64,000 nt of DNA from the NCBI GenBank assembly GCA_021234155.1, contig JAJEKV010000193.1, forward strand, positions 62,001 to 126,000. The letters run 5' to 3'. The stretch comes from Isoetes taiwanensis (taxonomy: Eukaryota; Streptophyta; Lycopodiopsida; Isoetales; Isoetaceae). Below, in pieces: positions 9,738-63,925 of the stretch (the first letter of the stretch is position 1; every line of letters starts with the position of its first letter). The notes beneath the pieces are model-generated. The model had not been told where the DNA came from, did not search any database, and was given only the letters and a program-made list of their open reading frames with translations. Both the position numbers and the translations under genes were made by a program.

Positions 9738-11618
9738 CTAGTAATGGTGCCCAGCGTTGCTGGGCATAAGTTGAGAGCCTGTAAATGCTTTGGGATGCAG
9801 TGAGAAAAGCCCTATCCCTTTCCCTTTCCCTTTTGCTCTATCCCGCATTTCATTTTTTCTTATTTTCTCTACTTTTTTTTCTTTTCCTTTTTTGTCTCGT
9901 CTTTCTCACATGTTTCCTTGTTTTCCCATCCCTTTCCTTCCCCCTTCCCTGTTCCCGATAATCTTTTTCCCTTCCCTTTTGCTCCTTTCTTCACCTTTTC
10001 CCTCTTCTCTTTTTTCTTTGCCCTTTTCCCTTCCCCTTTCTCTTTTTTTATGCCTTCTCTTTTCCCCACCATTTTTCCATGTCTTCCCTTTTTCTCAACC
10101 TTTTACTCTTTCGCCCTTTTCCATACCTATTTTCCCTTCTCTTTTCCTCCTTTTCCCACTCTTTTCCTCTTTTTTTTGTGTGCCCTTTTCCCTTCCATTT
10201 TTCTTTTCTCCCTCCCGTTTTTCATGCCCTTTTTACCTTCCCTTTTTCCATCTCCTCACCCTTTCCCTCTTTCCTTTTTCCCTTTTCCTTTTTTCTCTTC
10301 CCCTTTTCCATTTTCCTCATTTCCTTTTTCCCGTGCCTCTCTCTCTTTCCTCTCTTTTCCATTCTTTTTTCTTTTCTATTTCCCTTTTCCCATGCCCTTT
10401 CTCCCACCCTTTTCTTCTTTCTATTTTTCCCCTGCTTCCTTTTCCTCCTTTTCCACCCCTTTCCTCTTCCCGTGCAATTTTCCCTTCTTTCAACCCTTCC
10501 TTTTTTTTTTCTCTTTTCCTTTCCTCATGTCCTTTTTCCCTTTCCCTCCCCTCCATCACTCCCCTGCTTCCCTTTTCCTTTTCTTGATGGATTTTTTTCT
10601 TTCCGTTTTCCTCTTTTGCCGATCCTTTTCCTGTGCACATTTTCCCTTCCTTTCCTTTTCCTTTTCCCTTTTTCCATGCCTTTTGCACATTTGTTTTATT
10701 CTCTTATTTCCTATACCCATTTTCCTCTTTTCCCCACCCTTTCTCTCTTGCCCCTTTTCTTTTCCCTTTTTTCTTTTTTCCCTTTCTTCACCATTTTCCT
10801 CTTCCCTTTTCTCTCATGCCCTTCCCCCCTTCCCTTTTCTCGTTTCCCTCTTTCTTTTTCCTTGTGACCTTTACCTAGGTTCCCTTTCCCCCTTTCCCCC
10901 TTTTCCTTTTCCTTTTTCTTTCTTCTCACTTTCCTTTTCTATGCTCCTTTTCTTTCCCTCTCCCTATCCTTTTCTTGCTCCCCCTTGTCCCTTCCTTTTC
11001 CTCATTTTTTTCAACCTTTCACTCTTCCCCTTTTCTTGATCGTTTTTCCTTCCCTTTCCCTCTTTTTTTTTTTTTCCTTTTCCTATGCCATTTGTCCCTT
11101 CCTTTTCCTCTTTCCTCAACGCTTCTCTTTTCCCCTTTTCCCATGCTCCTTCCTTTTCCCATGCTTTTTTTCTTCTCCCCTTTTCCATGCTTTTTCCTCC
11201 TTCATTTTCTCCTTTTTTCAACCTTTTCCTCTTTCCTTTTTTTTTTCATGCCCTTTCCATTTACCTTTTCCACTTTATCTCTTCCTCCTTCCCTCGTGCC
11301 CTTTTCCCAAGTTCTCTTTCCCTTTTTCGTTTTCCATGCCTTTTTCTCTTCTCTTATCCCCACCCTTTTCCCTTTTCCTTTTACCCTTTTCCCTTTTTCC
11401 CATGCCATTTTGCCCTTCACATTCTCTCTTTCCACTTCCCTTTTCCTTTTCCCCCTTTTCATTTACCCTTTCCCCTTAAGAGATCGAAGCATGACCAATC
11501 ACAGTGTTGGTAAGTCGTGCAATAAATCTAGGCATTCGGATGCATCCAGATGATCTCGGCCATTCAAATTAGGGCTCGATGCACTACTTACGGTATAACA
11601 TTATAATATAAGATAAGA
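9738..11618 (-). mobile_element. Nested Helitron carrying a polypyrimidine tract
   Basis: A second A|CTAG plus the identical hairpin occurs at 9737-9767. The sequence just left of it, ACATTATAATA, is the same as the 5'-terminal region of Helitrons at 11598-11608. So this element landed inside, or recombined with, the 5' terminus of the outer Helitron, and the right terminus at 11618 appears shared. Outside about 60 bases at the left and 140 at the right, its body is a single C/T-rich tract. No gene. Confidence 0.65.
9805..11478. repeat. 1.7-kb polypyrimidine (C/T) tract
   Basis: Almost uninterrupted C and T on the plus strand with scattered CATGCC, CACC and AACC interruptions. It is a degenerate array of CCCTTTTCC-type units. 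It creates many long frames rich in Phe, Pro, Ser and Leu, and Lys/Glu/Arg/Gly frames on the other strand. These are composition artefacts, not genes. The strand asymmetry could allow triplex (H-DNA) structure. Confidence 0.9.
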
Positions 11619-23221: not shown

Positions 23222-23656
23222 TAATTGTTAATTGGCTTGCTAATAAAAGAAGTAAACAGCTTCAACCAATAGACCATTGTTTTTAAGTCCATCAAGTTAG
23301 GATGACTCTCTCTTGATAAAAGTTCACGAAGTGGGTATAGTTTTAGGAATTTGGAAAACGTGTCTCGAAAGTATAGTAGTATGTGTCACATAGTGACCCA
23401 AAACAGAACGGGAACATAGATGCTAACGTCGAAACATGAATGAGAACATAGACCCAAAAGTCGGAACACAAATGGACAACACTCTCATTTTTAAATTCAA
23501 AAACGTTTTTGGCGTTCCCTTTGAATAAGAAATGTCATAGACCACTTGAAATAGAAATGTAACATATGGGACAAATTTAAAACACAAGATTATATATATG
23601 GTATACAGTTAGTGGGCTTTTTGTGCTCTTTCTTATATTGGGTCCTATAGACCTTT
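23222..23656. repeat. 3' flank of PGG unit 5 and left flank of transposon
   Basis: From about 23593 (GGTATACAGTTAGTGGGC) to 23656 it matches 37129-37180, the repeat that contains the unoccupied transposon site. No gene. Confidence 0.75.
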
Positions 23657-23681
23657 GGGTGTAAAATCGCTAGTAGGGTAC
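23657..23681 (+). repeat. Left terminal inverted repeat
   Basis: GGGTGTAAAATCG… A 15-base palindrome (AGCACTT-T-AAGTGCT) follows about 45 bases inside, near 23703-23717. Confidence 0.7.
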
Positions 23682-23798
23682 AACTTTTGGCGAAGCGTTT
23701 AAGCACTTTAAGTGCTGAAACTCGCGGACGTCGAAGCCCGTCACACCCTTCTCCCTCCTTTTCTCTTGGGCGCGAAAACTCAAATCAATATTTGACTG

Positions 23799-26457
23799 TT
23801 GATGATGGAGGCATGGAGCGCGGATGATTTTCACAGCATCAGAGGTCTGTGCAATTCGGGGGTGAAGCCCCACGAGGAAGAAACTTGGTCGGAAAATAAT
23901 GTCACGGATCGAGATTGGGAATCTGTTTGGACAAAGAAGTTGAACAAGGGAAAGATAAAATGGCACTGTGCAAAGGAGCATCTTCAAGAGAAGTTGGAAA
24001 CACTCTGCCGAAAAATCTACAAGAATTGTCATAATAAAGAAGTAAGAAAGCAACTGGCCCTTGCTTTTGCGTTTGAAAATTGCACTAGATCAATAGTTGC
24101 ACCTGAGGAACGCAAAGTAAACTGGGCTGCATTTGCTATGCAATGCCAAAGATACCACAACAATAGACAAGTAAAAATAGAGGCAGATGTTGTAGCACAT
24201 GTTAGAAAAACTGAAATGAAGGCAAAGCCAAAGGTGGCAGCTGGATCAAATGAGATCAGTGCATGTGATGAAAACATAAAAACCTTAGAGAATGCGACAG
24301 AGATTGGAAAATCGGTTTTACTTATCGAAAAGAATCTGGAAGCAAGGGGAAGTGAGTTGAAAGGCAATAAGAAGGCCTCCGAAAGTACGTAAAATGATGT
24401 TGGAAGAGGCTGAGAACAGTTTAAGACAGGCCACAAATGATTTGGCTACAAAACAGGAGGAGTTCAAGCTTAATCCAAACTGTGAGTTGGAGGCAGAAAT
24501 TAAAGATTTGGAGTAGACTGTCCAGATGGAAACTTGGCACATGAACAAGGTACAAAAAGCAATGAACCCTACATCTGTTAATGAGCAGGTCAAATGTAAA
24601 ATCAAACTTGAGGAGGAGTTAAAAGTTCTCGAAGAAGAACGAGACTTCGCATTTCTACATAAACAATTTATGGAAGTTTGAAAATGGATACTCCTCGCAA
24701 CATTTAGCATCTCTACTATTATACGAGATAAGTTGTTAGTGCAAGATCCATTTTATACATGTTCACATGTGGTCTGGAATTCACTAAAGCTTACAGGTTA
24801 AGTTTAGCACTGAATTGCCAACATGAGTATCATATAGCTTGTTGGTCATTGTTGAAAGGAGGACAATGTATTCATGGTTGCCCTGGAAAGGTGCCAGGGG
24901 GTGTATTTGACGAGCTAGGTTTTGGCCATCTTGCAGGTGCTTCAAATAGTACACCAAAAAAGATGTGTTAATCCGATCACGCAATTGAGGTCTCACCCTC
25001 TGGGGTTCAAAGAAGGACAATGGCTTCATTTGAAGATGCACAACACCTGTAAAGTCCTATAGGAGTACAAATCAATTGTGACCATTTGAATGTAACAATG
25101 AGAGAACCACCACCACCAGTCCAAGAAGCTGTCCAAGAAGCTATAGAAGAAGCTGTAAACACAGCACCAGTTGTGGAAAAAACAACAGACCCGAGTGTAC
25201 ACACTGAAGCACTTAAGGAAGTTGAGGGAGTAATTCCATTGAATGAGGGCAACTTGGGTGAATTTTTGCCAAAAGGAAAGGGAAGAAGAACAAAGAGGGG
25301 TAAGCTGGAGGATAGCAAAGAAGTTGTTCAGGCTACAAGAAAGAGAACAAGAAGTAGCACTGTGAAAGATGCAGGAAGCAGTCTCAATCATGGCACCACA
25401 CCTATCAAAGTGTGTTCTGAAGAAAATGCAGAATCAGGCCCTCAAGTTTCAGGTGAGCCTGATCTTCAACAAGTAATTGATGCCCTTAATAAACCTGGAA
25501 AGTCAGTGTGGGAAGTGCTGGCCAAGGCCACAACTTAGTGTTGCTTAAAACATTGAATATTATTGATGTTCTTTTGTTGCATTCACTGTAGGATTACCAA
25601 TTGATTCTGTTAGGTCAGAGAATCCTGCTGTTGATACAGAAAGGTTCCCACATTTCATTTTCATCTTCATCTATTTATTCATGTAGTAATTCCTGTTGTG
25701 TAGGTATTCAGGATGTTCCAACGTACTAAATATTGATTTGGCAGCAAAAGATAAACTCATTGTCTTGGATTTAAATGGTGTGTTGGTAAAAACTTTTGGT
25801 GCAAATGAACACATACGCTTGAAAACAGGATTGACAATGACATACACTAGCAGAAAGAAAGTGATATTCAGACCAGAAGCAGTGTTCTTCTTGAAGACGT
25901 TGTTACAGAAGTGTTGTGTTGGTATATGGTCATCAATGCAACTCTCTAATGTGGAAGATGTGCTGCAAGTACTATGTCCAGATTTGAGGGACGGATTTCT
26001 ATTTGTATGGGGACAGGAAAAATGTGTGAAGACCAGTTTTCACCACCCTAACAAACCTGGCTATCCAGTCATGATGAAGCCACTTGGGAAAATATATGAA
26101 TCATACCCAAGATTCAAAGGTAAGACTTTGCTTCTTGATGATTCATTATACAAGTCTTACCTTAGCAGCCCCTGAAAACTTCTGCTAGTACCTGCATTCA
26201 AGATGGATGTCTGTGATGAAGTGCTAACAGTACTCACCCCAAAGATAGAAGGAATACTGCAGGCCAAGACTGAGGAAAAAATAAAGTTACTGGTGAAGAA
26301 CACACACAGATGCATGCCCTGGCCTATGACAGATAGAAATTTTATGAAGCTATGCTTGGAAAGACTTTCTGGAAAACAATTGCAGTTGTGCACCCTTGTG
26401 AATGAGGAATTGGAGAAGGTTTATGGTGATGAACATTGTCATCCTCCATTACTGTGA
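23799..26457 (+). CDS. Transposon gene with FCP1/HAD phosphatase-like domain
   Basis: Open pieces in order. 23799-24392 is an unrecognised acidic/basic N-terminal domain. 24391-24680 is a coiled-coil-like Glu/Lys stretch with one stop, reached by a one-base shift. 24759-24971 is a RING-like Cys/His half-site (NCQHEYHIACWSLLKGGQC). 25086-25538 is a low-complexity linker with a nuclear-localisation-like KGKGRRTKRGK. 25702-26175 is an FCP1 (NLI-interacting-factor) homology domain: LIVLDLNGVLV (nucleophile Asp kept, second motif residue Asn), VIFRPEAVFFLKTLL, VGIWSSMQ, LFVWGQEKC, LLLDDSLYK. 26203-26457 is a C-terminal helical region. Introns are likely between the pieces; an AG lies at 25700-25701. 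FCP1-type enzymes dephosphorylate proteins such as the RNA polymerase II C-terminal domain; the DLNGV variant is known in plant relatives. Substrate unknown. Frames are imperfect, so it may be decayed. Confidence 0.6.
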
Positions 26458-27145
26458 TTAAGCCTGCCTCCTTTATGATTATTGGTCTGATTGTCATTTA
26501 TTTAGGCCAAGGAATCCTACACTTTTCATGTACCATATTTATCTTATATTAATTTAAGAATGTTTTTGCTATATTGTTTATATAGTTCAATGCAGACTTG
26601 TCTATAAGTTTTTGCTATATTGTTTATATCTAGTTCAATGCTGACTGCAAGGGGTGCTTAAAACTTATCAAGTGCTTAAAAAAAAAATTGCTTGCAAGTG
26701 CTAGTCTGGTATGAGTCTTAATGGCAGATACTGCTTACTGTCATGCAGCGACAGTTACTAAGTATGTAGTTGCTTAACGCTAGCAGAAGTGTTAATGTCA
26801 TCAAGTGCTTACTGTCATGCAGTTAAGGTGCAGTTAAGGTGCAGTGCTTACTGTTATGCTATATAACTGTTTAAAACTAGCTGTTTATTGCATAAGTGCT
26901 CGTGTGTTCCACTGCTTACTCACAAGCACTGTTGAAACTAATTAAAGTGCTTAGTGTTTGAGCTAGAGCACTGTTACATTCAAGCAGAATCTGAATGGAC
27001 TGTACAAGAATTCAATGTTTTGTCACCTGCATGGATAATAGAAGTAAGAACATCAAATGAATTCATTCTTTACATAATGGAAAAAACAAAATGTGAGACA
27101 CAACAAAGAACAAAGTAGATGACAACAAAGTAAGTGAGATAATCA
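26458..27145. other. Transposon interior with iterated GTGCTTA motifs
   Basis: 26649-26960 repeats AAGTGCTTA, GTGCTTACTG and TGCTTACTGTCATGCAG many times, starting with GGGGTGCTTAAAACTTATC, which resembles the right TIR. It is probably a transposase-binding or subterminal array, or the relic of a nested end. The rest is AT-rich with no gene. Confidence 0.5.
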
Positions 27146-27837
27146 AAGAACATATATTTGATAGACAAAAAGAACATTTGATAGAGAAAAAAAAATGAAA
27201 AACAAAGAACAAAGTGTTAGAGACAAAAAACTTTTTATATAAATAAAATATTTTCCAAAAAAAAAAGCCATAAGGCCAGTGTTTTCGAAGGCTTTCAGGT
27301 GGGCTTTCGGGTGTCTTCGGGGGCTTTCAGGGGGCTTTCGGGTGCTTTCAGGGGTTTTCAGTGGGCTTTCAGGGGCTTTCGGGTTCAGACTCGGGCTCAC
27401 TCCACACATTCTCCTCCAATTCCCGTCTCCTCTGCCTTTTGTCGGGCGGTCTTCGTAGCAGCTCTCGAAAATGAGTTGTTTTTCCTCTTCTTCATCTGCC
27501 TCTTCCTCTTCCTCTTCCTCTTCATCCTCCTCTTCCTCTTCATCCTCCTCTTCCTCAGAATTCTCCTCCTCTTCCTCTTCAAAATTCTCCAATTCCTGCT
27601 CGACTTCTGTAAACAAAAAAAGCATTTAGTTAAAACAAAAGAAAAACAAAACAAAAAAAAATTGCAAAACAAAAGAATACCTTCTTCTTCCTCATGGTCC
27701 TCAGTGTCTGTTGCTTCTTCTGGAGGAACCGACTCAAAGAAATAGGCGCTCCTGTATTGCGGAGCGATGTCCGCATCCTCAGGCACCTGCTTAAGCACAT
27801 ACTCGGGTGCTTTATTTCCGCTGCATGTAGAGGCCAT
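27146..27837 (-). CDS. Acidic two-exon protein of the transposon
   Basis: Exon 1 runs from the ATG at 27837 down to 27681 (MASTCSGNKAPEYVLKQV … DHEEEE). A 74-base intron has a GT donor at 27680-27679 and an AG acceptor at 27608-27607. Exon 2 starts at 27606 and continues in frame (EVEQELENFEEEE…) to a stop near 27143. I chose this model because the splice rejoins two open frames exactly, giving a Glu-rich stretch across the junction. The predicted product is about 206 residues: a short N-terminal region, roughly 50 residues of Glu/Asp, a Pro-rich PESP/TPES region, then a hydrophobic Phe-rich tail. The tail may not be translated if another splice exists. No family recognised. Acidic tracts suggest a nuclear, DNA- or histone-associated role, but that is only inference. 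Confidence 0.5.
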
Positions 27838-30230
27838 TGTAAAGGAAATAGACGGAATGGGCGTAAGAAGAGGATTTGGGCAAGACGCCGGCTTAAGGCG
27901 GAAGCGTGAGGGCGTAAGAAGAGCTTAAATCCTATGATTAGGCGCCTAGTGCTTAAATCCTATGCTTAGGCGCGTCAGTGTACGAAAAACCTCACACGCG
28001 CAGAATAATTAATTCGTAACCAGGCTTAAATATTTCGTATGACCATTGGAATTGACACATGTCACATCGAGGAAATGCCTTGACAACATAATTTTGCCAA
28101 GAATGTTGGGATAGTAATGGTACCAAAATAAATAATTGAATGTTATATTCCAATGTCACAAATGTACATTCTTAACACTAGAGTTGTCCCTTGATGGACC
28201 ATAAATGGTTCATTTGTACAGTTTGCTTTAAAATTCATATAAAATCAATGGCATAAAATTCAGGTAAACCCTTTTTACACGTTAATATATGGCAGTCACT
28301 TTGCATAGGAAAAATAGTTAAAAATGCATATACCCCTAAAATTGAAAGTTATGCTTGGGTGAATCAAGGGGGGTCAAGTCCAGTTTGCTTCATGTTTACA
28401 TAATACAAAACTGTCTCAACAAAAGGATTTTTTTTATTTTTTTCGTTATAATGGTATTTTTCTATACGAGATAAGGATGAATATACAAAAAATCTTGTTC
28501 CAATCCGAAGTCTAGGAAGAAAGATATAGTCAGTCAAACATGATGGGGTCAAAACAGTTTTCTGTCTTCTGTGGACCAATAATGGTTCCCGTTCCCAATT
28601 GTTTCAATTAAAATTCTATAACTTTTGCATGAAAATGATTTTTTACTTCAAATTTGGTATATAAGTAGTTGACTAATTGCTTCATGTATAGAAATTATTT
28701 GTTGGCCTGTAATTTGAAGGTTCAACTTTGACTTATAGTTAACAATTTTAAGTGACTTTTAATTGATGTTTATTTTGTTATATTTGAAGGAAATTTATTG
28801 AAATAGTATGTCATTGAAAAAATCATATATGAATGCTTGTATGGATATGAGATCAATGAAAAAACAAGTAAAGAAAAAGAGCAAAAGGCATGATCATGAT
28901 AAATCAATAAAGGTTTCTGTACCTAAGACCATTACTGGTCCACAGGTCCATTTTAAATCAATAACTTCTTTACCTTAGTCAATCTCAAGCTGAATTTTAG
29001 AATATTGGTATTTCATGAGCTCTTCTATCAATAAAAAATATCTATTGCTAGTTTTGGGCTAAAACTTTTAGTATTAGTTCCAAGTTATCATCAAATGTTT
29101 TCAATGTTTGATCTCTAGATTTGTGCCTTGAGGATGAACTTCAAACACCATATTTCAAAGCTTCCCAAAGTTAAGAAAGCAATTCAAGATGAACTAAGGA
29201 AAAATATGAAAAGGTATGACTAAAGAAGATCAAGATAGACTGCTACATCGATGCCAATTATTGGTCCACATGACCTCTCATTTCAAAGTTAAGAACATCA
29301 TCATCTTAATCAATTCTTTAGAATATAGTTTATACCACATTATATATATGATAACATTAGTTGGTTAGGGAGGATTATCTATCTAAAGGGTGATATCGAA
29401 GCACGAAAATTAAGTAGTTAAGGGCTACTTTGAATGCACGAGAAAGTCCACTTACACCTTTCAAAGACTATCTTATAGACAATGAGAAATCATAATATCA
29501 TTATAGGGGACAAATTGAATAGAGCCAGTGCAAAAAAATAGAGAAATTTTCTCAATCCACTTGGTTTAATCCTGGACCTATAAATAGCCCATGCTTACTT
29601 ATATTCAAATCTTGTATATAATATATTATTCTAACATGAAATTTGAGATATATATTGCCAACAAAGGTTCAAATTTACAAAAATTACAACCTATCATAAA
29701 AGTTGATCTACATGTACTATGGTCCTATTTAGACTATGATACTTTGGAGCAGCCACACATTGACTAACTTTATAATAGTGAAAAATAAGTAGATTTCTTC
29801 ATTTTTTCTTCTAATAAGACCACACTAAGGACCTCAATATCCCTTTTTATCATATATTGTGCCATTTAAAAGACCTATGGGAGAAATGTAGTGCAATGGT
29901 CCCCCGGGACAACAATTCAATCTTCATTTTGAAGTACGTGTCCATGCACATCACCCTTGTGCATCCTCACTATTATTAATATATATACAAATGTGTGCTT
30001 ACGTGCTTAGGTGCTGGAACAACAAATCACTTGCAAAGAATTACATCAATTTGGTTAATGTCAAAAGAATTACAATGTTATTGTGAGACTGGCCATAATT
30101 TTTTCATGGGTCTCCCCGTGAAATTTTGTACATGTCTCAGGCCTTCTATTTTGTCCATATCAATTTTAGGATATCTTACCACATGGCTGTGCACGGAGGC
30201 TTCGGGTTGTTTAGTGAGCAACATGTACTT
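27838..30230. other. Transposon interior without recognised gene
   Basis: 27920-27975 has a direct repeat (GCTTAAATCCTATGNTTAGGCGC) upstream of the acidic gene, in promoter position. 28000-30230 is AT-rich. A TGGACCAATAATGGTTCC-like motif recurs in either orientation near 28194, 28572, 28930 and 29265. No coding frame was trusted. Confidence 0.45.
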
Positions 30231-32227
30231 GAAATTACCCAAGAATGTTCACCTTTATCATGAGCAGTGGCAAAGTACCTGCACCATCATGTTCACCTTT
30301 ACTATGAGCAGTGGCAAAGTAGTTCCACACTATTTTCCTTGTCATTCATTGTGAAGTACCTGCCTAAGAAAAAAAAAAAGTTTTGTTGACTTGAATTGTG
30401 ATGAGCGACCATCACTCCAAACCCAATGCTTCTCATACTCTATTTCCTCGCTCCTTAAGCCATGCAATATGCTTTTGTAGGCAGTGTTCCACAAATAATG
30501 AGTCATGCACTTTATCATCAGAAATGTAAAAGTGAGTCTATTTTATGATCTTCCTACCATTGTTGAGTCTATTCCTGGTCTGCTCCAATCTTCTGTTCTT
30601 TTTTTTCTTCTTCTTTGGGCGGGTCTTCTTCCGTGCACGCAGAAGAAGGAATATGAGCACTTTTGTCATGTCTATATGTTATGTGAACAAGTATAGAAAC
30701 TTGGTTCAGATACCAAAGCATTGATCGGGGCTCATTCTCGGATCTTGATGCTGTAATTTTCTGAAAGTCAATAACAGACATACAATTGTATCTTCTGGAA
30801 ATGATGACACACACTGTTTAAACTGATTGGCCTGCCAATGTGCTATGTAATTGTGTGGAACAAAATCTGATATTACCTTCTTCACATCCTCTTGAAACTC
30901 ATTGGGACTTCTTTCCTTCTGTACTAATCTTAAGACAGGTTTGTACCTCAAAGCCTTTCTTGGATCCCCTCAATTCTCTCGTCTCCGTCCACGCAGTGTT
31001 GCTTTTCAAATGTCTTCCAAGTAACTAGTAATGAACCCGTGCCATCCATTTCCTGTGGACATTTTCTAATTCTATCCAACCCACATTTTTTACACGCCAA
31101 CATCAAGCAGTTATGATCAAACCACTCCTCATCATCACATTTGCTGCAGACTACTTGTCTCCATAGATCACTGATGCACTTGATTGTATGCTTCTTGGCT
31201 GCACATTCTGGGCCAGAGCCACAAATATCACAGTGGCAGTTGCAATTGTCATGAACTCCACCCGATTTTCTCGGTACCGTCAATCCACGCATGATGTATT
31301 CAAATTTCAAGTGGTAGATGCAACAGCATGTATGCCTTTCACGCATCCTCCTCACAAAACTCGGTTTCAACCTCTCAAAAGTCTGCAATGCAATTTTGAT
31401 ATGAGGATTCTCCTCTCTAAACCTGAGGTAGAATTGCAACTGCAGGGAAATCGTGTGAATGCCAAATAAATGCTACATATAATGAACTCTACAATATAGG
31501 ATGAATACTCACTTGGCTGACTTCAAGAAGGTGAATTAGATATTCTATCTTTATTCCCTCGCCTCTCGATACATACCTCCTCCTCGCCTTTCTTGTATGG
31601 AGAAACTCTTGTATTTTCTGTCCAGAACTTGAGAACAGCTTCTTTGTTGTAATCTAATATGCTATCCATCCGCTTCCTCCTCCTGAACATTGACCAAGGT
31701 CCTTCCCCTTTGTTAGCTTGCACCCTTCTTTGAAAAGCATTTGAACTTGTTTTTCTAGGGATGCTGAGCAATCTGGCCACTTCTGTTTGATTCAATGGCT
31801 TGACACCATTTGTACCGCCGCCGCCATTATCGGGTGGACTTCCTTGCACGGCATGTCATGATTCCTCTCATACTTATGTTCTTGCATTGTTTCCTTCAAA
31901 TTCTTCACCATTTGCTCGGCCATAGTAACCTACTTAGATTTCTTTATAGAAGCATTTGGTAAATCCCTTGCCCTCCAAAGAAGACTGTCAAGGATACGGC
32001 CTTTGTCATTGTCATCGACATTTGTACTAATTTGGTTGAATACTTCAAAAATTCCTCCTGAAATTTCTCTTATTCTCATGGTCACCGGGTCTCAATTTCT
32101 TATTCTTCTTTGAAGGGGAATTCTTCTTCATTGCTACCTTCTTTGCATACAATCTTTGCCTCTGATGTCTCTTCCTTGCTGCATCAATGGCTTTGTAAAG
32201 TGAACGGGGAGAGGAATTGGGTTTCAT
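30230..32227 (-). CDS. DDE-type transposase of the 8.9-kb element (copy A)
   Basis: Read leftward. Basic N-terminus MKPNSSPRSLYKAIDAARKR (ATG 32227). Helix-turn-helix-like VARLLSIPRKTSSNAFQRRV, GPWSMFRRRKR, FWTENTRVSPYKK, LLEVSQ then a GTGAGT donor near 31515. Second exon from about 31442: QFYLRFREENPHIKIALQTF, KPSFVRRMRERHTCCC, then Cys-rich CNCHCDICGSGPEC and CSKC…CKKC, zinc-ribbon-like. Next FVPHNYIAHWQANQFKQC and MSVIDF (first Asp), VSILVHITYRH, HWVWSDGCSSQFKS (second Asp; clear in copy B), and SKGEHDGAG (possible Glu; near 30290). This order fits a family of plant and invertebrate transposases I know only as uncharacterised proteins. The acid triad assignment is inferred. There is one in-frame stop between KKSK and VTMAEQ (near 31930) and several shifts, many at CAG/CTG. 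An upstream ATG at 32405 is possible. Confidence 0.65.
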
Positions 32228-32500
32228 CTATCCCGGATTTCTGTGTATTGCAAAATTGGTGAGGGCAAATTGTTGAATTTCGGTTCAGGCAATTCTTAGA
32301 AACAATTAGTCCCTCCATTTTGCTTGAATTCAAGATGGGTAAGCCCGCCATCCACGAATATGGCGGGCTACAGGCATTCATGCTTCCGGCACCATTCAAG
32401 CTCATGATTCTCTCAGCCTGTCATTTGACGGGCGCGCACCCTACATGTCAATTGATCAATCACGCACGTCGTGTTTAAAACACGCCGATTTTAAGCACTT

Positions 32501-32525
32501 GCTACCCAGTACCGATTTTGCACCC
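32501..32525 (-). repeat. Right terminal inverted repeat
   Basis: On the minus strand GGGTGCAAAATCGGTACTGG. A 15-base palindrome (CGTGTTT-A-AAACACG) lies inside at about 32470-32484, the counterpart of the palindrome in the left end. Confidence 0.7.
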
Positions 32526-33228
32526 CTTTTGGTTTTCATGGACGATAAAAATTGATTCAATTCTATATTCATGTTATGTAGCGAAATGGTATGCTAGATA
32601 TTGTATCTAACTAGTGAATTGTAGACTAGATGTTGTATGTAACTAGTAATTTTATATTATAAAGTAAAAAAATTGACTTCTATAAGATTTTGAAATCTTT
32701 TGAAAGCATCCGGATCTTCAAATTGTTGTTCATGATGCCTAGGGGGTCAAAATAGTATCTACAATCTTTTCCTTATCAGACACTGCAACCTGCATAACTT
32801 TGTTGTTCTCCACTAGATGCCATACTTCTTTCTTCTGGTCTGTAGACATTGAACCTGTCAAATCCAAAAACGTTTTCGTGATTATGGAGGCTGCATGTTG
32901 CAATTGCTTTTTTGAGTGCTCAATACTCCAATCTAAATTTTCATTTGACAATTGTTGCCTCATCTTGCTTGCTCTTTGTCGTTGCTTCTGCAAACGCCAT
33001 TTCCGCCTCCTGTCTTCGTCATTAGTCATTGGATCACAAGAAGCCTGAACAAAAAATGGATGGAAAGAAAGAAACGAGATCTCTCTCCCTCGAGAAAGGG
33101 GGAATCAACCACCCCCCGATATTCTCGTTAATTTTGAATTTCCCTCTTCCCATAATACTAAACAAATGGTGCTAATTTGGGTGGACAAAAGGACACTAAT
33201 TATGAGACACCGTAACGTGCGAGGACCT
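32526..33228. other. Right flank of the transposon
   Basis: 32526-32752 matches 37180-37400, the right half of the unoccupied site. The remainder is unique to this unit and its duplicate apart from the small frame listed next. Confidence 0.7.
32739..33029 (-). CDS. Small hypothetical basic protein
   Basis: A 96-codon frame from the ATG at 33029: MTNDEDRRRKWRLQKQRQRA …, Arg/Gln/Lys-rich and helical, ending ILTP. The duplicate at 56390-56720 has lost the frame, partly at CAG/CTG-like sites. It could be the first exon of an unrecognised or transposon-derived gene. No family recognised. Confidence 0.3.
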   Translation of the reverse strand: MTNDEDRRRKWRLQKQRQRASKMRQQLSNENLDWSIEHSKKQLQHAASIITKTFLDLTGSMSTDQKKEVWHLVENNKVMQVAVSDKEKIVDTILTP

Positions 33229-33780
33229 GATGAGGTTTACCCGACGCCAAAAGATACAGAGTACAAAAGGGGAACAAGACACTCCTTTTTACCATGGGAT
33301 GATGGTCTTGATAACATTAAAAAAAGATCATGAAAACATGTTAACCTTTGTAAAATGATCTATGTCATGAGCTATCGAGTATGGTATAATGTTGTAATGA
33401 TAAGGTAATTGTTAATTGGCTTGCTAATAAAAGGAGTAAACATCTTCAACCAATAGACCATTGTTTTTAAATCCATCAAGTTAGGATGACTCTCTCTCGA
33501 TAAAAGTTCACAAGGTGGGTATAGTTTAGGAATTTGGAAAACGTGTCTCGAAAGTATAGTAGTATGTCACATAGTGACCCAAAACAGAACGGGAACATAG
33601 ATGCTAACGTCGAAACATGAATGAGAATATAGACCCAAAAGTCAGAACACAAATGGACAACACTCTCATTTTTAAATTTCAAAAATGTTTTTGGCGTTCC
33701 CTTTAAGAAATGTCATAGACCACTTGAAATAGAAAAGTAACATATGGGACAAATTTAAAACACAAGATTATATATACACG
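33229..33780 (+). pseudogene. PGG 3' fragment (sixth unit, copy A)
   Basis: Starts abruptly at GATGAGGTTTACCCGACGCC, the last roughly 35 codons of the ankyrin-PGG exon (GTRHSFLPWDDGLDNIKK…), stop near 33331. It continues through the usual 3' flank to ACAAGATTATATATA. That flank end is shared with unit 5, not units 1-4. The rest of the exon is missing. Confidence 0.9.
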
Positions 33781-35640
33781 AAACTTATCGTGGTGGCCAA
33801 GGCCATACTTGAACGTTCTCTTCTCCTTGGCCACCATGAACATTTCTCTTTTCCAACCTTTTTGTGTAATTCAAGAATATGTGGGACTTGGACCCACACT
33901 GCTGCCATATGGTTTCGTACATGTATGATAGGTGGGTGTTACGCGAACATTTCTCTCATGTTCCAGAACATACAGGATTTGGACCTGCATTTTTTTTTTC
34001 CAAAAGGAAAAATGTGTGATTTGCATGCTCCCTTGCAATCTAATTTTCTCCTCAAAAAATTGTTGATAGAAGTTATTTCCATCGTTTGCAACTGAAGCCT
34101 CTGAATAACAATTTGCTTGAAAGAGCACGCGATGTGATGTGTACATACACCTCATGTTGAGTACAAAACTTGCATGTCAATTTTATAATAGCTATGAGAT
34201 AAAAGGAAAGACTACATTTGTCAAATTTTGAAGATTTAAGCTATTTTTTGAGGATCTAGAAGTGCCACAATACGAACAATGTTATATACATGCATCAGGC
34301 ATTACAGTTGTAGTGTTGCATTGATACAAAGGTCGGCATTGCAGTTGTAGTGTTGCATTGATACAAAGGTAGGCAACCCGAAGGAATTCCACAGTCTTGC
34401 TAGCATACAATTTGCAGATAATGTCCATTTCAAGTGATACATGTAAAACCATCTTGGATGAAGTAGGTAGAACGGAGGAGGTCTTTCTGCCCTATTCTTC
34501 AAGTGATACGTGTAAAACCATCTTGGATGAAGTAGGTAGAATGGAGGAGGTGTTTCTGCTCTATTCTACCTACTTCCATTGACTTTGTCCACCATCATTT
34601 ATCGAGCTCTTTGCTGATTTAGCAATTTTAGGAGGGATCTCACTCTTCATATTCAACTTTATCATTCTTCCAAGTGCCATGTCATATCAATTATCAATTA
34701 TTTTCCCTAGCCTTTCTTTCAATTTTTATCTATACATATCATGGTTATGAAAGCAATGAAAAACAACATGTGATGACCTTTTAAACACATGAATATATTG
34801 CAAACAATATTTCAATATTTCATGGTCTGATCTATAATAACCGAGGCATTATAGAAGCCTTAGGCTCATCTATTCGAAGTTTGAATTACAATATTATATC
34901 TGGCACGTATGACCACTTGTTCTTATGCTAGCAGCAACTTAAATGTATTTTGCAGAATCAAATAGCATGATTTAAATAGTCTGTAAAACCTGGAGCTAAA
35001 AATGCTCAATCAAAATGGACTGACATGGTTTTGCTTATTGTATATGCTGAGAGAAAATTTGCCACAATCTTAAGCATTTGCATCACTGGGATTGTGTCAC
35101 TGGGATAGAGTATTGAGGCCACCATAAAGAGATTTCACTTCCCCAGAAGTCTTCACTAGCCAATAGTGAATATTCTGCTCCTACAAGGTTCAGAACAATT
35201 GCTTTCATAACTTAATGTCTTTGATATGAGTCTTCAATCACCACAAAAACCATGTAAATGATTCGTGGCAACAGAGTCCGGACTGTCAAAGGAAAAGACT
35301 AGGTTTAAACACAAAGGATTACTTTAGAAGCACACAAAAATGCTATGCTGGTCTTCCCCGGATTACGGATCTACATCAAGTCCACTGTACATGAAATCTG
35401 CATTGCCATCCTCACTTGCTTGGTAAAAATCGTTCGATGCCAACACCAAATCTAGCAACCCCAAAATGGCTATTATAGCTAAGCAATCCTGAAGATAAAG
35501 CCGCAAAATCGGAAGTCTTTCTTCTGTGTTCTGCAAGTTAAAAAACAACAAATGAAAATTTCTTCACATATTGAAGAACGGGCTTATCCACAAAATGCTA
35601 GTTGCTCCAGAAGTAAAAACCTGAGTGTCAAAGCCAAAAA
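33781..35640. other. Unassigned sequence with small repeats
   Basis: Hairpin GGTGGCCAAGG…CCTTGGCCACC near 33791-33835. A 37-bp tandem pair lies at 34301-34374 and a 69-bp tandem pair at 34430-34567 (TCAAGTGATACATGTAAAAC). The minus-strand frame 35551-35363 (LYLQDCLAIIAILGLLDLV …) reads like an exon, but I do not recognise it. The block is absent downstream of unit 5, so it is an insertion here or a deletion there. Confidence 0.5.
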
Positions 35641-35699
35641 TGGGATCGCATAACCAATTGCATAATTTCTTGCTGGTTATATGCACAAAACAAAATCAA

Positions 35700-36543
35700 A
35701 TAAAGGATTTTCAGCACATAACCTGGCTACTTCTATCATCTATGATCTCCACCAGAGCATTTGCAGACCATACCCAGACTATCGCCTACCATCACAAATG
35801 GCCCTGATTAACATGTATGCTAAATGTGATAGCCTGCATGATGCGCCAAAAGTATTTGACCAAATGCATCAACGCAATGTTGTGATCTGGAACATGAATT
35901 TGGTATGGAGGCACTGGATTTGTTTCAGCAATGATATCGCAGGCTGCAGGGTCTGAAGCCCGACAATATCACATTTGTCTATATTTTATATGCATGTAGT
36001 CATGCAGGCCTTGTTGATAAGGGACAATGCTATTTCGATGCAATGGTCAAAGATTATGACATCATACCGACAACTGAACATTATGGCTGCATGGTTGATC
36101 TTTTGGGTCGTGCAAGACAGTTGGAAGAGGCGCATGCCTTCATTAGGAATACAGCTTATGAAGATATAGCTGTTGTATGAATGGCTCTCCTAGCTGCTTG
36201 TAGGATTCATGGTGATGTTAAAAGAAGTGGGATTGCTGCAGAACAGGTCCTCAAGTTGGACCCAGATATGCTAGAGCTGGTAGATGGGTGGATGTTGCAC
36301 GTATTAGAAAGAGACATAAAGAAGGAACCGGGTGCGCCTTCAATTGAGATTGGTAATCGTTTCATACCTTTCTAATTGGTATATCTCCCATCCAATGAAG
36401 GAAGCTATCTATGCGAGGCTGAAACTTTTGAATAGGTAATTAGATGTGTGTGGGTATGTGCCTGATACGTCATCAGTCTTGCATAATCTGGATGAGGAGA
36501 CCAAAGAAACGTTGCTTGGTTATCATATTGAGAAACTGGCATG
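35700..36543 (+). pseudogene. PPR-DYW protein pseudogene (copy A)
   Basis: Frames in sequence read LINMYAKCDSLHDAPKVFDQ and MHQRNVVIWNMN (a PPR motif), then GLKPDNITFVYILYACSHAG, EHYGCMVDLLGRARQLEEAH, and LLAACRIHGDVKRSGIAAEQ with VLKLDPDM (E motif). [25 protein letters not shown] and [10 protein letters not shown] follow (E+ and the start of the DYW domain). Such proteins bind organelle RNA and edit C to U. The cytidine-deaminase HxE (…HSEK-like) region is present only as GYHIEK, and the CxxCH…DYW end is missing. Stops and shifts (for example TGA at 36178) and the absent N-terminal repeats make it a truncated pseudogene. Its parent is probably elsewhere in the genome. Confidence 0.85.
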
Positions 36544-37123
36544 AGTCTGCAGACCCTGCGATCACCATAGCAAATCAACAGCAAACCTATAGGTTTCTCA
36601 AGAAAAACATGGCAAGCAAACATGTATTGTTGTAGCTTCGCTATGGAGTTTTGATGAGTCCGCAATATTCATTTAAGTTGGACTTCGCTTTTGGCACCTC
36701 AAATAACCGTGAAGTGGTCCGGGATCATGGTTTTGGCGAAAGAAAGCAAAGCAAAGGGATTTCTTGCAGCAGCAAAAAGAAAGGGGAAGATCCAAATCTG
36801 CGCAGAGCTTTTGGATTGCGCGACAGATTGCTTTTCTTCACCATTGGCGACCTCCCGCATTAGTACCGAGCTATGGCGGATTTGTGAGAGCGGATTTTGC
36901 CCGAATGGGGCGAGAGGAAGTGAAAAGCAAAGCATTCGGACGGAAAGCGATTCATTCAAAGTAGATAAGAACAAAAACGTGGCATCCCTACGTTTTTTCT
37001 TTTTTCTTGAATTTAGCAAAACCAAAATTAATAGACGTGTCAAGCGATGGGCTCTTCTCAGCCCTGAAATATTAGACACCCATTTTTTTTAAGAACAAAA
37101 TATACTGCTTTACATAGGTAGTG
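36544..37123. other. Unassigned spacer
   Basis: Overlapping short frames on both strands with no recognisable protein. Differences from copy B are especially dense at CAG/CTG. Confidence 0.4.
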
Positions 37124-37400
37124 ATGGTATACAAGTAGTGGGCTTTTTGTGCTCTTTCTTATATTGGGTCCTATAGACCTTTTGGTTTTCATGGACGATA
37201 AAAATTGATTCAATTCTATATTCATGTTATGTAACGAAATGGTACGCTAGATGTTGTATGTAACTAGTAAAATGTAGACTAGATGTTGTAGTAATTTTAT
37301 ATTATATAAAGTAAAAAAATTGACTTTTATAAGATTTTGAAATCTTTTGAAAGCATCGAGATCTTCAAATTGTTGTTCATGGTGTCTAGGGGGTCAAAAT
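37124..37400. repeat. Unoccupied target site of the 8.9-kb transposon
   Basis: 37129-37180 matches the left flank of the transposon (AGTGGGCTTTTTGTGCTC … TATAGACC). 37180-37400 matches the right flank (TTGGTTTTCATGGACG …). The joint GACC-TTTT-GG is uninterrupted. A duplicate is at 60826-61102. Confidence 0.85.
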
Positions 37401-37949
37401 AGTCTCTTATTGCAATGGTAGCTGAAGTACTTGAAGGTTTTGGCGACTTAGGAAGGTATTATGAGGCAACGCTTGAAGATATTCAAATTCGAAGTTCAGA
37501 AATTTAAGTTTGGAGAGTTTTTATTGCTAGATATCCATGTTGGATTTACAAAGAAATGAGCACAACAGTCATTGGAATTGTCCCAATATACTTAATGGGA
37601 TGTTTTCATCTTGCAATTGGGGCTCTCGATGGGAGGAATATTCCTCCTTTTATGCCAGATCAAGGGCCCTCTGTTTTTTGCAGGCCACGACCCATACAAA
37701 TTTCAAAGGTGCAGAATTCACACACATCATTGACGTTATGTGAACCAAAATTGCTATGGACAATAGCCATATTCATATATTCATATTTGATTGTCACAAT
37801 TACATCGTTGTTTCACCATAACAGTCAATCCAAAATCTCGAACTGCTTGAATGAATAAATCAATCCTGCACAATCTCGGAATCAATCTCGCAATCTCGGA
37901 ATCCATCTCGCAACTAGATCTACCTGTACAACAGAGATGGCTGTTTACA
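37401..37949. other. Unassigned spacer
   Basis: No gene recognised. Short CAATCTCG repeats occur near 37865-37915, just left of the tRNA-like module. Confidence 0.4.
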
Positions 37950-37952
37950 CCA

Positions 37953-38003
37953 GGGCTGGAGGATTTGAACCTCCAGGCCATGTCGGCCTCACCAGAACCC
38001 TAC
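37953..38003 (-). other. tRNA-like T-arm module 1 (copy A)
   Basis: On the minus strand GGAGG-TTCAAAT-CCTCC forms a perfect 5-bp stem with 7-base loop, containing a B box. TGGTGAGGCC upstream is A-box-like. There is no complete cloverleaf, so it is a probable SINE or tRNA-derived repeat. Confidence 0.5.
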
Positions 38004-38285
38004 CTATCCTGCATAAATGCATACATCTTACAAGCAAGCAGCAGCAAACTGAAGCATTCAGATGCATAAATGCAAGTGGCAGCATACAAGCAAGCCGACA
38101 TGCCACAGCCATGATTAGTGCTGCTCATGATTAATGCAAGCCGACAAATTACTGCTGCTCATGATTCAGCCATAACCGATGGCCTCGTCCGCCATAGCAT
38201 CTGTGAAGCGGAATTGCAGTGGATAAAAACTATGCTGCGCTCCTAAGCAGCCCGACCTGCATAAAAAAAACAAACCAAGCAACCC

Positions 38286-38333
38286 TGGGCTGGAGGATTC
38301 GAACCTCCAGGCCCGAACGGCCTCACCAGAGCC
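38286..38333 (-). other. tRNA-like T-arm module 2 (copy A)
   Basis: GGAGG-TTCGAAT-CCTCC with a canonical B box (GGTTCGAATCC) and the same TGGTGAGGCC upstream, 333 bases from module 1 and in the same orientation. Confidence 0.5.
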
Positions 38334-39159
38334 CATTTTCATGATTACAATCCTTTCAATACATTCTCCCACATTAAAGCCATCAAATATCTGCCACAAC
38401 TCCTCCGATTTCAGGGCAGGAAAATCGTGGGCTACAGTTCCAGCCATGGTAGGAACCCTTGTTTCAACCAGTTTCAGGCATTTGCTGCCTCTTGTACAAG
38501 GACGGCCGCCCTATCAGAGAATCTAAGCTGCAAATCTCTAGAGCCCCAGCTTGTTTCTCTTCAAAAACCTGATGTCCCACATTCTCTGACACCACCGCCC
38601 TCTGCCCCAAATCAGAAGAAAATAACCATGAAGCCCCTCCGCTCCATAATCCCTGCCTCACCGTCACTGGGATCCGCTGCCGCCCTCTCCGCCTAAATGT
38701 CCTCTGCCTCTGCTCCGCTACCCTTGCCAAAAAAAGAAGGGAGCATCCCTTCTCATCCACGCTCTAAAAAAAACGCCTCCAATTTTTTTTTTCCTTCTCA
38801 ACCTTTCCAAAGATAACTTATCTAAAAATCCAAAAAAGCAACATGACCTCTAAAGGACATTAAGCTCCTCAAATATGGCAATATATACGGTTTTCTATAC
38901 AATACAGTACCAGAATCATAGTTCCCACCGTTGCGAGAATACCCTCCCCAAATACCAAACAAATTGGGCAAACTTAATGGGAAAATATGCAAAACCATAA
39001 TTTCTTGTCAAAGCACTTGTAATGAATATAAGCTTTTGCCTGAAAAGTACACATCAAGTAATTGCTGTGGAACCAAATCTGATCAAGAAGTACCAATCTA
39101 AGGTACGGGGCATTTAGATTAACAACTGCGAAAAACTTCTTGCAATCTTCTATTTTCAT
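38334..39159. other. Unassigned sequence
   Basis: GC-richer segment 38440-38760 with short frames on both strands, then AT-rich DNA. No protein recognised. Confidence 0.4.
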
Positions 39160-39505
39160 GTAGTCTTCATTATACGTGTTGTGCGTGTGTGAGAGAGAGA
39201 GAAATATGAGTATTTAATATGTCTGTGAGACCTCCAGATCTATAAGACATCCCGTAAGTACATCAACTATACAACCATTCATCTAATGCATCCTCAGATG
39301 GAAATGCATTAGCCCCTCCCTCATCTAACTCACTCAGTTCAACTATATTTAATATCTTAAGTTTTTTCTCTCTACAATCCATTACATCCTCTACATATTC
39401 TAAACGAGGTGCATCCTGGACAACCACAATCGTCGGGTTCATCGATCCTACGACCCAGATCGTATGTTGGGGCCTCTGGGCACCTCTTATTTCACTTATA
39501 GTCAT
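39160..39505 (-). pseudogene. Short LINE-like 3'-end relic
   Basis: The minus-strand tail (…DEGGANAFPSEDALDEWLYS then a stop) followed by TCTCACAGACATATTAAATA resembles the end of the LINE fragment at 44560-44850 (…ESTNMFLSGDILNELIYDVE, then TCTCACAGATATAATAAATA). Likely the same repeat family. Weak. Confidence 0.35.
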
Positions 39506-40188
39506 TTATGATTGGAGGTGCCTATGATTTTGAAATATGAAATACGATTTCACCTAAGGTTTTGAGGGAATATCGAACCTCTATACGACTTTGCCTAAGA
39601 CTTTACAATATGAAATACGCGGCTAGAACCTCTACCAAAATAACTCAATGTCCTAATAAGACTACTTTAACCAATGTACCCAGTGAGCTAACGTGATTAT
39701 TTTTTATCTTGAATCTATATTATTTTTTATCTTGAATCTATATATTTTTTTTTATAACAACCCATTCAATTGTTTTAGGAATATATGGTCTATGGTTTCA
39801 GGAATTGTTATTTTTACATCCATATAAAATCCTCTTGGAACCCTTTTGTTATTTTGCTACATATTCTAAATGAGGTGCATTCCTCGAACAACCACGCTTT
39901 GTCGAATTCGTCGATCCTAAGACCCAGATCGTATGTTGGGGCCTCTGGGCACCTCTCATTTCGCTTATAGTCATTTATGATTGGTGGCACCTATGGTTTT
40001 GAAATATGAACTACGATTTCGCCTAAGGTTTTGAGGGAATATCGAACCTCTATACGACTGTGCCTAAGATTTTAGAATATGAAATATGGGGGCTCGGACC
40101 TCTACCAAAATAACTCAATGTCCTAATAAGACAACTTTAACCAATGTACCCAGTGAGCTAACATGATTATTTTTTATCTTGAATCTAT

Positions 40189-40223
<35 letters not shown>

Positions 40224-40320
40224 CAACCCATTCAATTGTTTTAGGAATATATGCTCATGATTTCAGGAATTGTTATTTTTACAACCATATCAAATCCCCC
40301 TGGAACCCCCTATTATTTTG
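39391..40320. repeat. Two tandem units of about 466 bp (copy A)
   Basis: Units start at CTACATATTCTAAAYGAGGT (39391 and 39857); a third start, CTACATATTCG, is at 40321. Each contains GACCCAGATCGTATGTTGGG and ends in a T-rich run, which is expanded to about 30 T in the second (near 40190-40219). Confidence 0.85.
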
Positions 40321-46683: not shown

Positions 46684-46744
46684 GTTCTACATATTTATAT
46701 TAAATTTCTAGCGGGCAACCCACTGTGCGACAGAATCTTGCTTA

Positions 46745-47509
46745 TTGGGCGCTTTGTTGGGCGCTTTGTTGGGAGAAGCTTTTCGTATGACCAGATCTAG
46801 CAAGGCGAAGCCTGCGGGCTCGCCAGGGAAAGGCTTCATCGAATACGAAGGGGACTCAGGTTATGTCATCACTCGGCTTCGAGAACTAAAAGATCAGGTG
46901 GCTAATCTTCAAAAGTCAGTTGATAGTCTGGTTTCACAAAACTCTGAACTGCAGAGGCAAAATGCAGACTTACAAGCACAGAACGCGGAATTGATAACAT
47001 TAGTTAAGCCAAGTCATGCAGACACTCAGTTCGACCAGACAAAACTGGCGGAATTGGTTGCTGAGACAACCAAAGAGCAATTAATTTTACACAAGGAGGT
47101 TACATCTGCAGAGAAATTAGAGCAGCAGGCTAGAGCACAGGATCTGAAAATCTCAGGCCTTGTTGAAGCAGAAGGTGAAGATACCAATGAGGTGGTTAAT
47201 CAATTTTTCAGAGACACCATGCATCTGCATGAACCACAGTTTGTACAGTGCAGACGTGTTGGAAAAATTGGAAATATGCATAAACCAATCTTAGTTAGGT
47301 TCACCAGTATTGAAGCAAAAGAGAGAGTTCTCTCCAACTGAGTAGCACTGAAAGGCCATAAAAAATGGCTGGATCCGAACCTGACTCCTCCACAGGCTGG
47401 GATAAGGAAAAGGAAATGGGTCAAAGTAAAGGAAGCCAGAGAATCAGGTTTGGTAGCTTATATGGATAGACAGGGTAAGGCAGTAGTAACCAGTAAGAGG
47501 AGAACATAG
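46745..47509 (+). pseudogene. LINE ORF1 (coiled-coil RNA-binding protein)
   Basis: A frame from about 46745 (possible ATG 46790) with a heptad-like coiled coil (LRELKDQVANLQKSVDSLVS, SELQRQNADLQAQNAELITL). It then has an RRM/L1-ORF1-like part (DLKISGLVEAEGEDTNEVVN, VQCRRVGK, KPILVRFTS). TGA at 47339-47341 interrupts it, but the same frame continues VALKGHKKWLDPNLTPPQAG to 47509, so a CGA-to-TGA change (5mC deamination) is the likely lesion. Such proteins coat LINE RNA for target-primed integration. Confidence 0.7.
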
Positions 47510-47521
47510 GGACACAGGACC

Positions 47522-50500: not shown

Positions 50501-50606
50501 GTTATGCCTTGATACTATCTTTAGCATGAGGCCACATGATCTTGGTTTGTATATCAAGGCAGTGGATTCTCATCATAATCTGCTTATGAAAATTAATCAA
50601 ATGTAA
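47522..50606 (+). pseudogene. LINE ORF2: APE endonuclease, reverse transcriptase, CCHC
   Basis: Endonuclease 47531-48350: MAWNAHGI, LLTETWEH, CYYAPLQ, VVVGDFNARTG, DYVLTSSSH and SNHSPLFLEV (the usual SDH is SNH). TGA at 48470-48472, then the frame continues into linker and reverse transcriptase: FRKDHCTLDHALVLRALFEN, FIDFSKAFDTVPRR, GVRQGCPLSPTLLGLFIDEL. The YADD catalytic box and about 30 residues around it are missing at about 49515. After it LELFCREKSMQVNPAKSKVM and YKYLGLDW follow directly. Two compensating shifts lie near 49040-49080. The C-terminus 50112-50606 has CVFCDQQALEDETHVLTQC, a zinc-binding Cys/His set. The enzyme would nick DNA and reverse-transcribe its RNA; without YADD it is dead. 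Confidence 0.85.
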
Positions 50607-53129: not shown

Positions 53130-53934
53130 CTACTTTGAATGCACGAGAAAGTCCACTTACACCTTTCAAAGACTATCTTATAGACAATGAGAAATCATAA
53201 TATCATTATAGGGGACAAATTGATTAGAGCCAGTGCAAAAAAATAGAGAAATTTTCTCAATCCACTTGGTTTAATCCTGGACCTATAAATAGCCCATGCT
53301 TACTTATATTCAAATCTTGTATATAATATATTATTCTAACATGAAATTTGAGATATATATTGCCAACAAAGGTTCAAATTTACAAAAATTATAACCTATC
53401 ATAAAAGTTGATCTACATGTACTATGGTCCTATTTAGACTATGATACTTTGGAGCAGCCACACATTGACTAACTTTATAATAGTGAAAAATAAGTAGATT
53501 TCTTCATTTTTTCTTCTAATAAGACCACACTAAGGACCTCAATATCCCTTTTTATCATATATTGTGCCATTTAAAAGACCTATGGGAGAAATGTAGTGCA
53601 ATGGTCCCCCGGGACAACAATTCAATCTTCATTTTGAAGTACGTGTCCATGCACATCACCCTTGTGCATCCTCACTATTATTAATATATATACAAATGTG
53701 TGCTTACGTGCTTAGGTGCTGGAACAACAAATCACTTGCAAAGAATTACATCAATTTGGTTAACTGTCAAAGAATTACAATGTTATTGTGAGACTGGCCA
53801 TAATTTTTTCATGGGTCTCCTGTGAAATTTTGTACATGTCTGTGCCTTCTATTTTGTCCATATCAATTTTAGGATATCTTACCACATGGCTGTGCACGGA
53901 GGCTTCGGGTTGTTTAGTGAGCAACATGTACTTG

Positions 53935-59343: not shown

Positions 59344-59399
59344 ATAACCAATTGCATAATTTCTTGCTGGTTATATGCACAAAACAAAATCAAATAAAG

Positions 59400-63888: not shown

Positions 63889-63925
<37 letters not shown>

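Follow-up and report, generated by a model that had tools for sequence, protein, structure and literature searches.

The element and its genes

In a 64-kb window of Isoetes taiwanensis DNA (by which is meant the whole stretch analysed, 64,000 nucleotides of contig JAJEKV010000193.1) a DNA transposon with exact 13-bp inverted ends occupies positions 23657-32525. It pairs a transposase gene with a gene for an FCP1 domain, as a sequence-only reading of the window had proposed, and both genes are found together again in many other copies and in divergent lineages of the same genome. The window copy itself is a decayed member of a cut-and-paste family: there is a stop in its FCP1 exon, several stops in its transposase, and a nested insertion, not assigned to a strand, at 28175-29905, which is absent from all 10 other copies aligned (0 aligned bases). 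The insertion has TTGTCCC-like inverted ends of its own.

The left terminal inverted repeat (TIR), GGGTGTAAAATCG, lies at 23657-23669 on the plus strand and the right, GGGTGCAAAATCG, at 32513-32525 on the minus strand. Each is bordered by a CTTT target-site duplication (TSD), at 23653-23656 and 32526-32529, just as had been claimed. The end motif is not rarer than chance, with three matches in 64 kb where 2.13 are expected when two mismatches are allowed; all three are exact, two being the element ends and the third, 56201-56213, falling in a truncated duplicate. That duplicate, the right part of the element at 53129-56213 (95.9%), belongs to a 10.9-kb segmental duplication in which 29424-40298 corresponds to 53129-64000 at 96.8% identity. 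An independent unoccupied site had also been proposed, at 37129-37400. This paralogous target site (37124-37407, plus strand) is real, since the joined flanks align to it at 91% and the sole gap, at the junction, is the extra copy of the duplication. A second unoccupied copy at 60822-61105 (plus strand) arose by the segmental duplication and, lying inside it, is not independent of the first.

Reading from the left, the plus strand carries an N-terminal domain (23811-24242), 39% identical to the corresponding domain of L011 (loci elsewhere in the genome are given L numbers), a RING-H2-like stretch (24768-24920), 49% identical to the RING of L017 in a match that begins after the first Cys, and an FCP1/NIF domain exon with a DLNG motif (25690-26457) and an in-frame TGA at 26173-26175. 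The transposase exons converge on these from the minus strand and were recognised through relatives: one or more catalytic-domain exons (30245-30936, broken), a Cys-rich, zinc-finger-like exon that is open (30948-31472) and N-terminal exons (31574-32076, broken). Also on the minus strand, at about 27455-27840, is an acidic protein gene, an addition of the window family with two versions among its copies; the gene of the window agrees at 87% with the L002 version and with the L001 version in the acidic tract alone. The open reading frame (ORF) lists of L011, L014, L017 and L019 (140-150 aa or more) hold no acidic ORF between the two genes. The acidic gene, correctly placed in the element by the first reading, is thus seen in the window family only and is not core.

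Recurrence of the gene pair

The assembly containing the window (1.66 Gb, 1,110 contigs) was searched with one exon of the transposase and with the FCP1 exon, the best 150 candidates being scored of 6,755 and 5,411 first-look candidates respectively. There were 153 matches to the transposase exon and 151 to the FCP1 exon, the family having at least 150 scored per gene. From 150 matches each, 61 neighbouring pairs lie within 30 kb of one another, where uniform scatter would give about 0.8, and 58 of them are convergent with the FCP1 gene first (three otherwise), the arrangement that had been described for the window. Spacing is 0.6-4.8 kb in 40 of the 58; two of the longer convergent pairs have a member common to another pair. 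Unpaired matches are uninformative since it was the best 150 per gene that were scored.

Ten further family copies were fetched, picked for carrying both genes. The left end is present in all ten and the right end in nine, L008, a 10,000-base piece, having the left end alone. With the window counted, the 4-bp duplication is exact in eight of the ten two-ended copies (CTTT, ACCA, AACA, CTGG, AAGG, TTTT, TTAT, ACAA), and those of L009 and L010 agree at three of four bases. The outcome that would have refuted the sequence-only reading, the two genes residing in separate elements with different ends, did not materialise: the pair recurs with related GGG ends.

Could two different elements have been nested by chance? 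Nesting does occur here, as the insertion at 28175-29905 illustrates, and L019 is flanked on both sides by what by eye are DUF7869-like transposase pieces. Against this, many copies repeat the arrangement at comparable distances and between a single pair of ends, by which chance nesting is refuted for the window family; the probability left to it is next to nil.

Divergent lineages

A genome search with PF03031 gave many places of 65-80 bits below the higher-scoring host-like genes, of which 88 were entered as dispersed, a few judged host-like or partial being left out. Six loci were fetched (L011 to L016); L012 and L016 proved to be ordinary FCP1-like genes with DLDHT. Genome searches with the transposase brought up further lineages; four other loci were picked by transposase alone, and FCP1 was found in three of them (L017, L018 and L019 but not L020).

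Both ends with a 4-bp duplication, enclosing the same two genes, are present in four divergent lineages: L011 (25 of 25 TIR letters identical, TSD TTTG), L014 (imperfect TIR, TSD ATCA), and the two complete elements picked by transposase alone, L017 (25 of 25 TIR letters, TSD ATTC) and L019 (TSD AAGA). FCP1 paralogues beside the same transposase, for which the first reading had suggested a check, are found both in the family copies and in these four. In a fifth lineage, L061, there are ends, a TSD (AGAT) and an open FCP1 exon, with a decayed transposase recovered in pieces. L018 has both genes; the end search found no ends there or in L059, L060 and L062. Because the end search in L011, L014, L017, L019 and L061 demanded a matching 4-bp duplication, the TSDs of the divergent lineages lend no independent support, whereas the TIRs do. 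Ends begin GGG throughout (GGGTGTAAAATCG, GGGTGTAAATATGG, GGGYAAAAGTATG, GGGTCTAAGTTAG, GGGTGTAAATTCT, GGGTGTAAATTTG), the search of L017 to L020 and L059 to L062 having retained GG-starting candidates alone. The remaining TIR pairs, of which one is nested within the true L011 end, four (non-GGG) are in L014 and one is in L020, were attributed to chance.

When the window family, L011, L014, L017 and L019 are compared, the transposases are 43-62% identical and the FCP1 domains 30-45%. Convergent pairs within 20 kb make up 17 of 18 and 15 of 16 in two other lineages, mostly 1.0-1.7 kb apart; these are counts, not rates, the 68 and 64 matches used, of about 150 listed transposase matches each, being the top-ranking ones and those on contigs with NIF places. 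Trees of both genes from seven lineages agree in joining L011 with L061 and L014 with L062.

The transposase and its affinities

The transposase pieces scanned had no Pfam match. The sole PDB profile match, to MazF at E 0.22, was taken as chance, and there were no relatives in viral contig or prokaryote genome contig collections. Sola transposases are characterised by a DDD catalytic triad; invariant in an alignment of five sequences from the present elements are Asp126, Asp127, Asp161, Asp202, Glu119, Glu186, Glu200 and Glu215. Membership of CMC/Transib was ruled out by the GGG ends and by motif order; in the comparison available from extracts of PMC12730594 most of that group have CA..TG ends. 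An H(4)H motif is present, and by eye there is no CxxC between SDG and H(4)H in the five sequences.

The 4-bp duplications, exact in eight of the ten two-ended window-family copies, fit Sola. Sola was reportedly defined by Bao et al. in 2009. Excerpts of PMC10741241 and PMC3627910 describe 4-bp duplications, short TIRs and an element size that make Sola, especially Sola2, alike to the present element, and they record Sola in a moss; those of PMC3627910 give TIRs of 12-21 bp, AT-rich 4-bp TSDs and, in some amoebal Sola2, an accessory Fanzor protein, and a portion of PMC9033089 lists Sola1 for Physcomitrella and Sola for Capsicum. The TSDs here, in contrast, are not all AT-rich (CTGG, AAGG), and the accessory gene is a different one from the Fanzor of those Sola2 excerpts. 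Ends and duplication fit a Sola-type element, and the likeness is one of description: the element is not filed as Sola. The assertion in the sequence-only reading that no named superfamily would accommodate it is not established, given the fit of duplication and size to what those partial sources (PMC10741241, PMC3627910) say of Sola.

The accessory gene

In L011, L014, L017 and L019 there is one gene region on the plus strand, the transposase being on the minus strand. It encodes an N-domain, a coiled-coil-like stretch (judged by eye), a RING-H2 finger and an FCP1/NIF domain. From the order of the ORFs, the N-domain, RING and FCP1 stretches are predicted to form one protein, and the splice structure of the putative gene is likewise drawn from ORFs.

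In the N-domain two lineages are 42-44% identical to a third. Pfam and profile searches recognised no DNA-binding family in it, and PDB profile matches to staphylococcal nuclease, at E 0.012 or worse, were set aside as probably chance. That conservation bears on one alternative, in which the protein would serve the transpososome as a structural subunit: the N-domain and the coiled coil would bind the ends or the transposase, and RING and FCP1 would do no more than hold proteins together. Such a subunit would agree with the finding that each element has both genes once, convergently arranged, and with the N-domain identity; the lack of a recognisable DNA-binding family tells against it, and we regard it as rather improbable.

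The sequence-only reading had noticed a RING-like motif accompanying the phosphatase domain, and a RING-H2 motif does lie upstream of FCP1 on the same strand, most clearly in L014, L017 and L011. All eight ligands of the pattern C-x2-C...C-x-H-x2-H-x2-C...C-x2-C are present in L014, L017 and L040; in L019 the finger is split by frame. The zf-RING_2 family was matched in three of four members, and the best PDB matches of the RING profile are the E3 ligases RLIM and RNF13 (4e-5 to 5e-5). The likeness to these RING-H2 ligases is in Cys/His spacing and profile match; the match is weak, however, and here the finger is within a transposon gene along with a coiled coil and an FCP1 domain. Next to the L011 element (C1051:7000001-7010400), or enclosing it, is another gene with coiled coil, RING and NIF domain, that of L040, which has a DVNR motif and seems to represent one more lineage of this accessory gene.

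The FCP1 domain of the window matches PF03031 at 5.7e-10 and that of L014 at 3.8e-21, with scores of 39.5 to 75.9 bits above the curated cut-off of 21.8. In the PDB the FCP1 profile matches UBLCP1 (7.5e-12) and CTDNEP1 (2.7e-5), of the same NIF family (PDB 3shq, 8ujl). These have DxDxT where the transposon domain, which follows a RING finger, has DxNG, its motif-I Asn aligning to the second motif-I Asp of CTDNEP1. Motif I is DxNG, and the catalytic DxDx(T/V) is lacking, in all 22 dispersed domains aligned. Close copies are among these, along with five domains from a second NIF family and two from a third type, so that they do not amount to 22 independent cases. A further 18 dispersed loci were fetched, and 15 of them entered the alignment; in L045 the Asn is retained while the first Asp is missing, and the motif region does not appear in the stretches shown for L054 and L056. 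Within the window family DLNGVLV is found in 10 of 11 copies (none was shown for L006). By comparison DxDxT is present in all eight host-like domains aligned and is shown in 15 of 19 host-like loci, the stretches of the other four being without the motif region, 'host-like' having been assigned from score and motif rather than synteny. The DLNG motif occurs in plant host proteins as well, a possible source of the gene.

In the phosphatase superfamily the second motif-I Asp is the general acid/base, and its loss usually cripples such enzymes. With Asn in its place, ordinary phosphatase chemistry is doubtful and the phosphatase domain is probably disabled; of the 'FCP1-like phosphatase gene' originally claimed, the PF03031 domain stands and the plain phosphatase is in doubt. 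An active phosphatase of unusual chemistry, working on RNA polymerase II or on the transposase, would be in keeping with the invariance, among the dispersed domains aligned, of the first motif-I Asp, one Lys and a DD pair, with Ser or Thr at the motif-II position, and with the purifying selection described below. The uniform replacement of the second Asp by Asn counts against it, and we consider it unlikely.

Two further kinds of NIF gene were encountered. L013 and L015 represent a second dispersed family, in which a multi-exon gene is followed by a DMNG-type NIF gene, the gene order being common to both loci; the multi-exon gene, a piece of which was scanned and had no Pfam match, we take to be ParB-like. 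A DUF7869 ORF lies about 3.6 kb downstream in L013. L047 and L053 have another NIF type, with FDLNGVLC at two places.

Retention and selection

For a test of retention, copies of transposase ranks 2-11 in two lineages were chosen by transposase alone and the stretch at the expected FCP1 place alone was fetched. Position and strand of the domain were as expected in 19 of 20, some of these domains being truncated or having stops; the exception, L072, has no FCP1 in the expected stretch. The ratio of nonsynonymous to synonymous substitution (dN/dS) was estimated for 18 pairs. In six comparisons of L011-type or L014-type subfamilies it is 0.18-0.31 for FCP1, at a synonymous divergence (dS) of 0.75-1.1, and in two pairs of the second NIF family it is 0.16-0.17. 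In two lineages, purifying selection acts on the FCP1 domain between subfamilies.

These values argue that FCP1 is selected and not a passenger. Plant DNA transposons commonly capture host genes, and a RING-FCP1 gene picked up in that way, without a role in the element, would be comparable to the acidic gene of the window family, which looks like such an addition. The window-family FCP1 exon would also accord with a passenger: it has no codon-position bias, shared variants numbering 19, 15 and 18 at positions 1, 2 and 3, and for this reason the family by itself shows no selection. Against a passenger are the same placing of the gene in four further divergent lineages, its retention in 19 of 20 transposase-chosen copies and the dN/dS of 0.18-0.31, on which grounds it was rejected as very improbable.

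What might the accessory protein do?

The usual picture of a DNA transposon is that of two ends with a transposase between them. In these elements a second gene, coding for several domains, is kept with the transposase across lineages whose FCP1 domains share 30-45% identity and, being kept across lineages so diverged, it probably pays for itself; we are fairly confident that it specifies an accessory factor needed by the element. Its parts, a finger of ubiquitin-ligase type and an altered domain like that of carboxy-terminal-domain phosphatases, point to host protein control and not to DNA chemistry. To our knowledge parts for host-protein control are rare among the described accessory genes of transposons.

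The reading favoured, in which our confidence is evenly balanced, is that the core set consists of the transposase and an accessory gene whose product combines N-domain, coiled coil, RING-H2 finger and FCP1/NIF domain, this product being a ubiquitin ligase with an FCP1 docking domain that serves escape from silencing or the level of transposition. Cutting by the transposase at the GGG ends would be staggered by 4 bp. Acting in trans, the accessory protein would be a ubiquitin ligase, and its FCP1 domain, with hydrolysis largely lost, would be a docking module that probably binds phosphopeptides. Either a host factor or the transposase itself would be marked by ubiquitylation, and in consequence the element would escape silencing or transpose at the right level. 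For the individual steps, dependence of ubiquitylation on the RING is a matter on which belief and doubt are equal, and the same may be said for FCP1 as a reader rather than a hydrolase. Anti-silencing as the outcome is tentative, and somewhat unlikely. It is preferred as the purpose by analogy with VANC (in the accessible part of PMC5735166) and with TET/JBP elements (as far as extracts of PMC12730594 go).

Several observations weigh against the favoured reading. L020 and L072 have a transposase, and the stretches fetched there gave no FCP1 match. The two gene trees share two clades only, and the other two FCP1 nodes have support below 60. The RING match of 25.4 bits is below the Pfam curated cut-off of 27.3 for zf-RING_2, and the L011 RING has Asn at one His ligand position. 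A single-sequence structure prediction of the window FCP1 domain, with the TGA read as Trp, had a mean pLDDT (predicted local distance difference test) of 40. As to selection, dN/dS is 0.26-0.61 in five pairs of close relatives (dS no more than about 0.1), one distant pair has 0.34 at a dS of 2.2 and four pairs are saturated, to which is added the missing codon-position bias of the window-family exon.

Known systems offer parallels. In VANDAL elements with VANC (from the text available of PMC5735166), in fungal TET/JBP elements and in a SET-domain Harbinger mentioned in the same extracts of PMC12730594, the transposase likewise has a retained neighbour that is not a transposase gene, in some cases across several types of transposon. 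The biochemistry that these partial sources describe differs from that of RING plus FCP1, and anti-silencing is proposed here by analogy. No report of an FCP1/RING transposon gene was found in the literature at the level of titles and the starts of abstracts, with subscription journals and Repbase Reports outside coverage, and an earlier naming of the element is possible.

A broader proposal, speculative and improbable as it stands, is that the DxN FCP1 domain is a transposon-specialised module of at least two unrelated transposon types, following RING in the GGG-ended elements and a ParB-like gene in L013 and L015. It would disarm a host phosphoprotein pathway, for instance RNA-polymerase-linked silencing, and would amount to a new class of transposon counter-defence, in which a phosphatase put to new use is joined with a ubiquitin ligase. 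Irrespective of that, how a plant transposon may turn ubiquitin and phospho-signalling against its host is made testable.

Other features of the window and genome

From 1352 to 23591 the window has a tandem array of similar genes whose ORFs presumably resemble ankyrin-repeat proteins with a PGG-like membrane end. Within 9775-11553 there is a long pyrimidine-rich stretch, open in several frames that overlap and are made up of Phe, Pro, Leu and Ser, and at 46712-50606 are broken ORFs that by eye are like those of a long interspersed nuclear element (endonuclease, reverse transcriptase). In the genome at large DUF7869 (PF25273) is a very abundant transposase-like family: there were 9,907 first-look candidates, and many of the best 150 scored have open frames of more than 400 aa.

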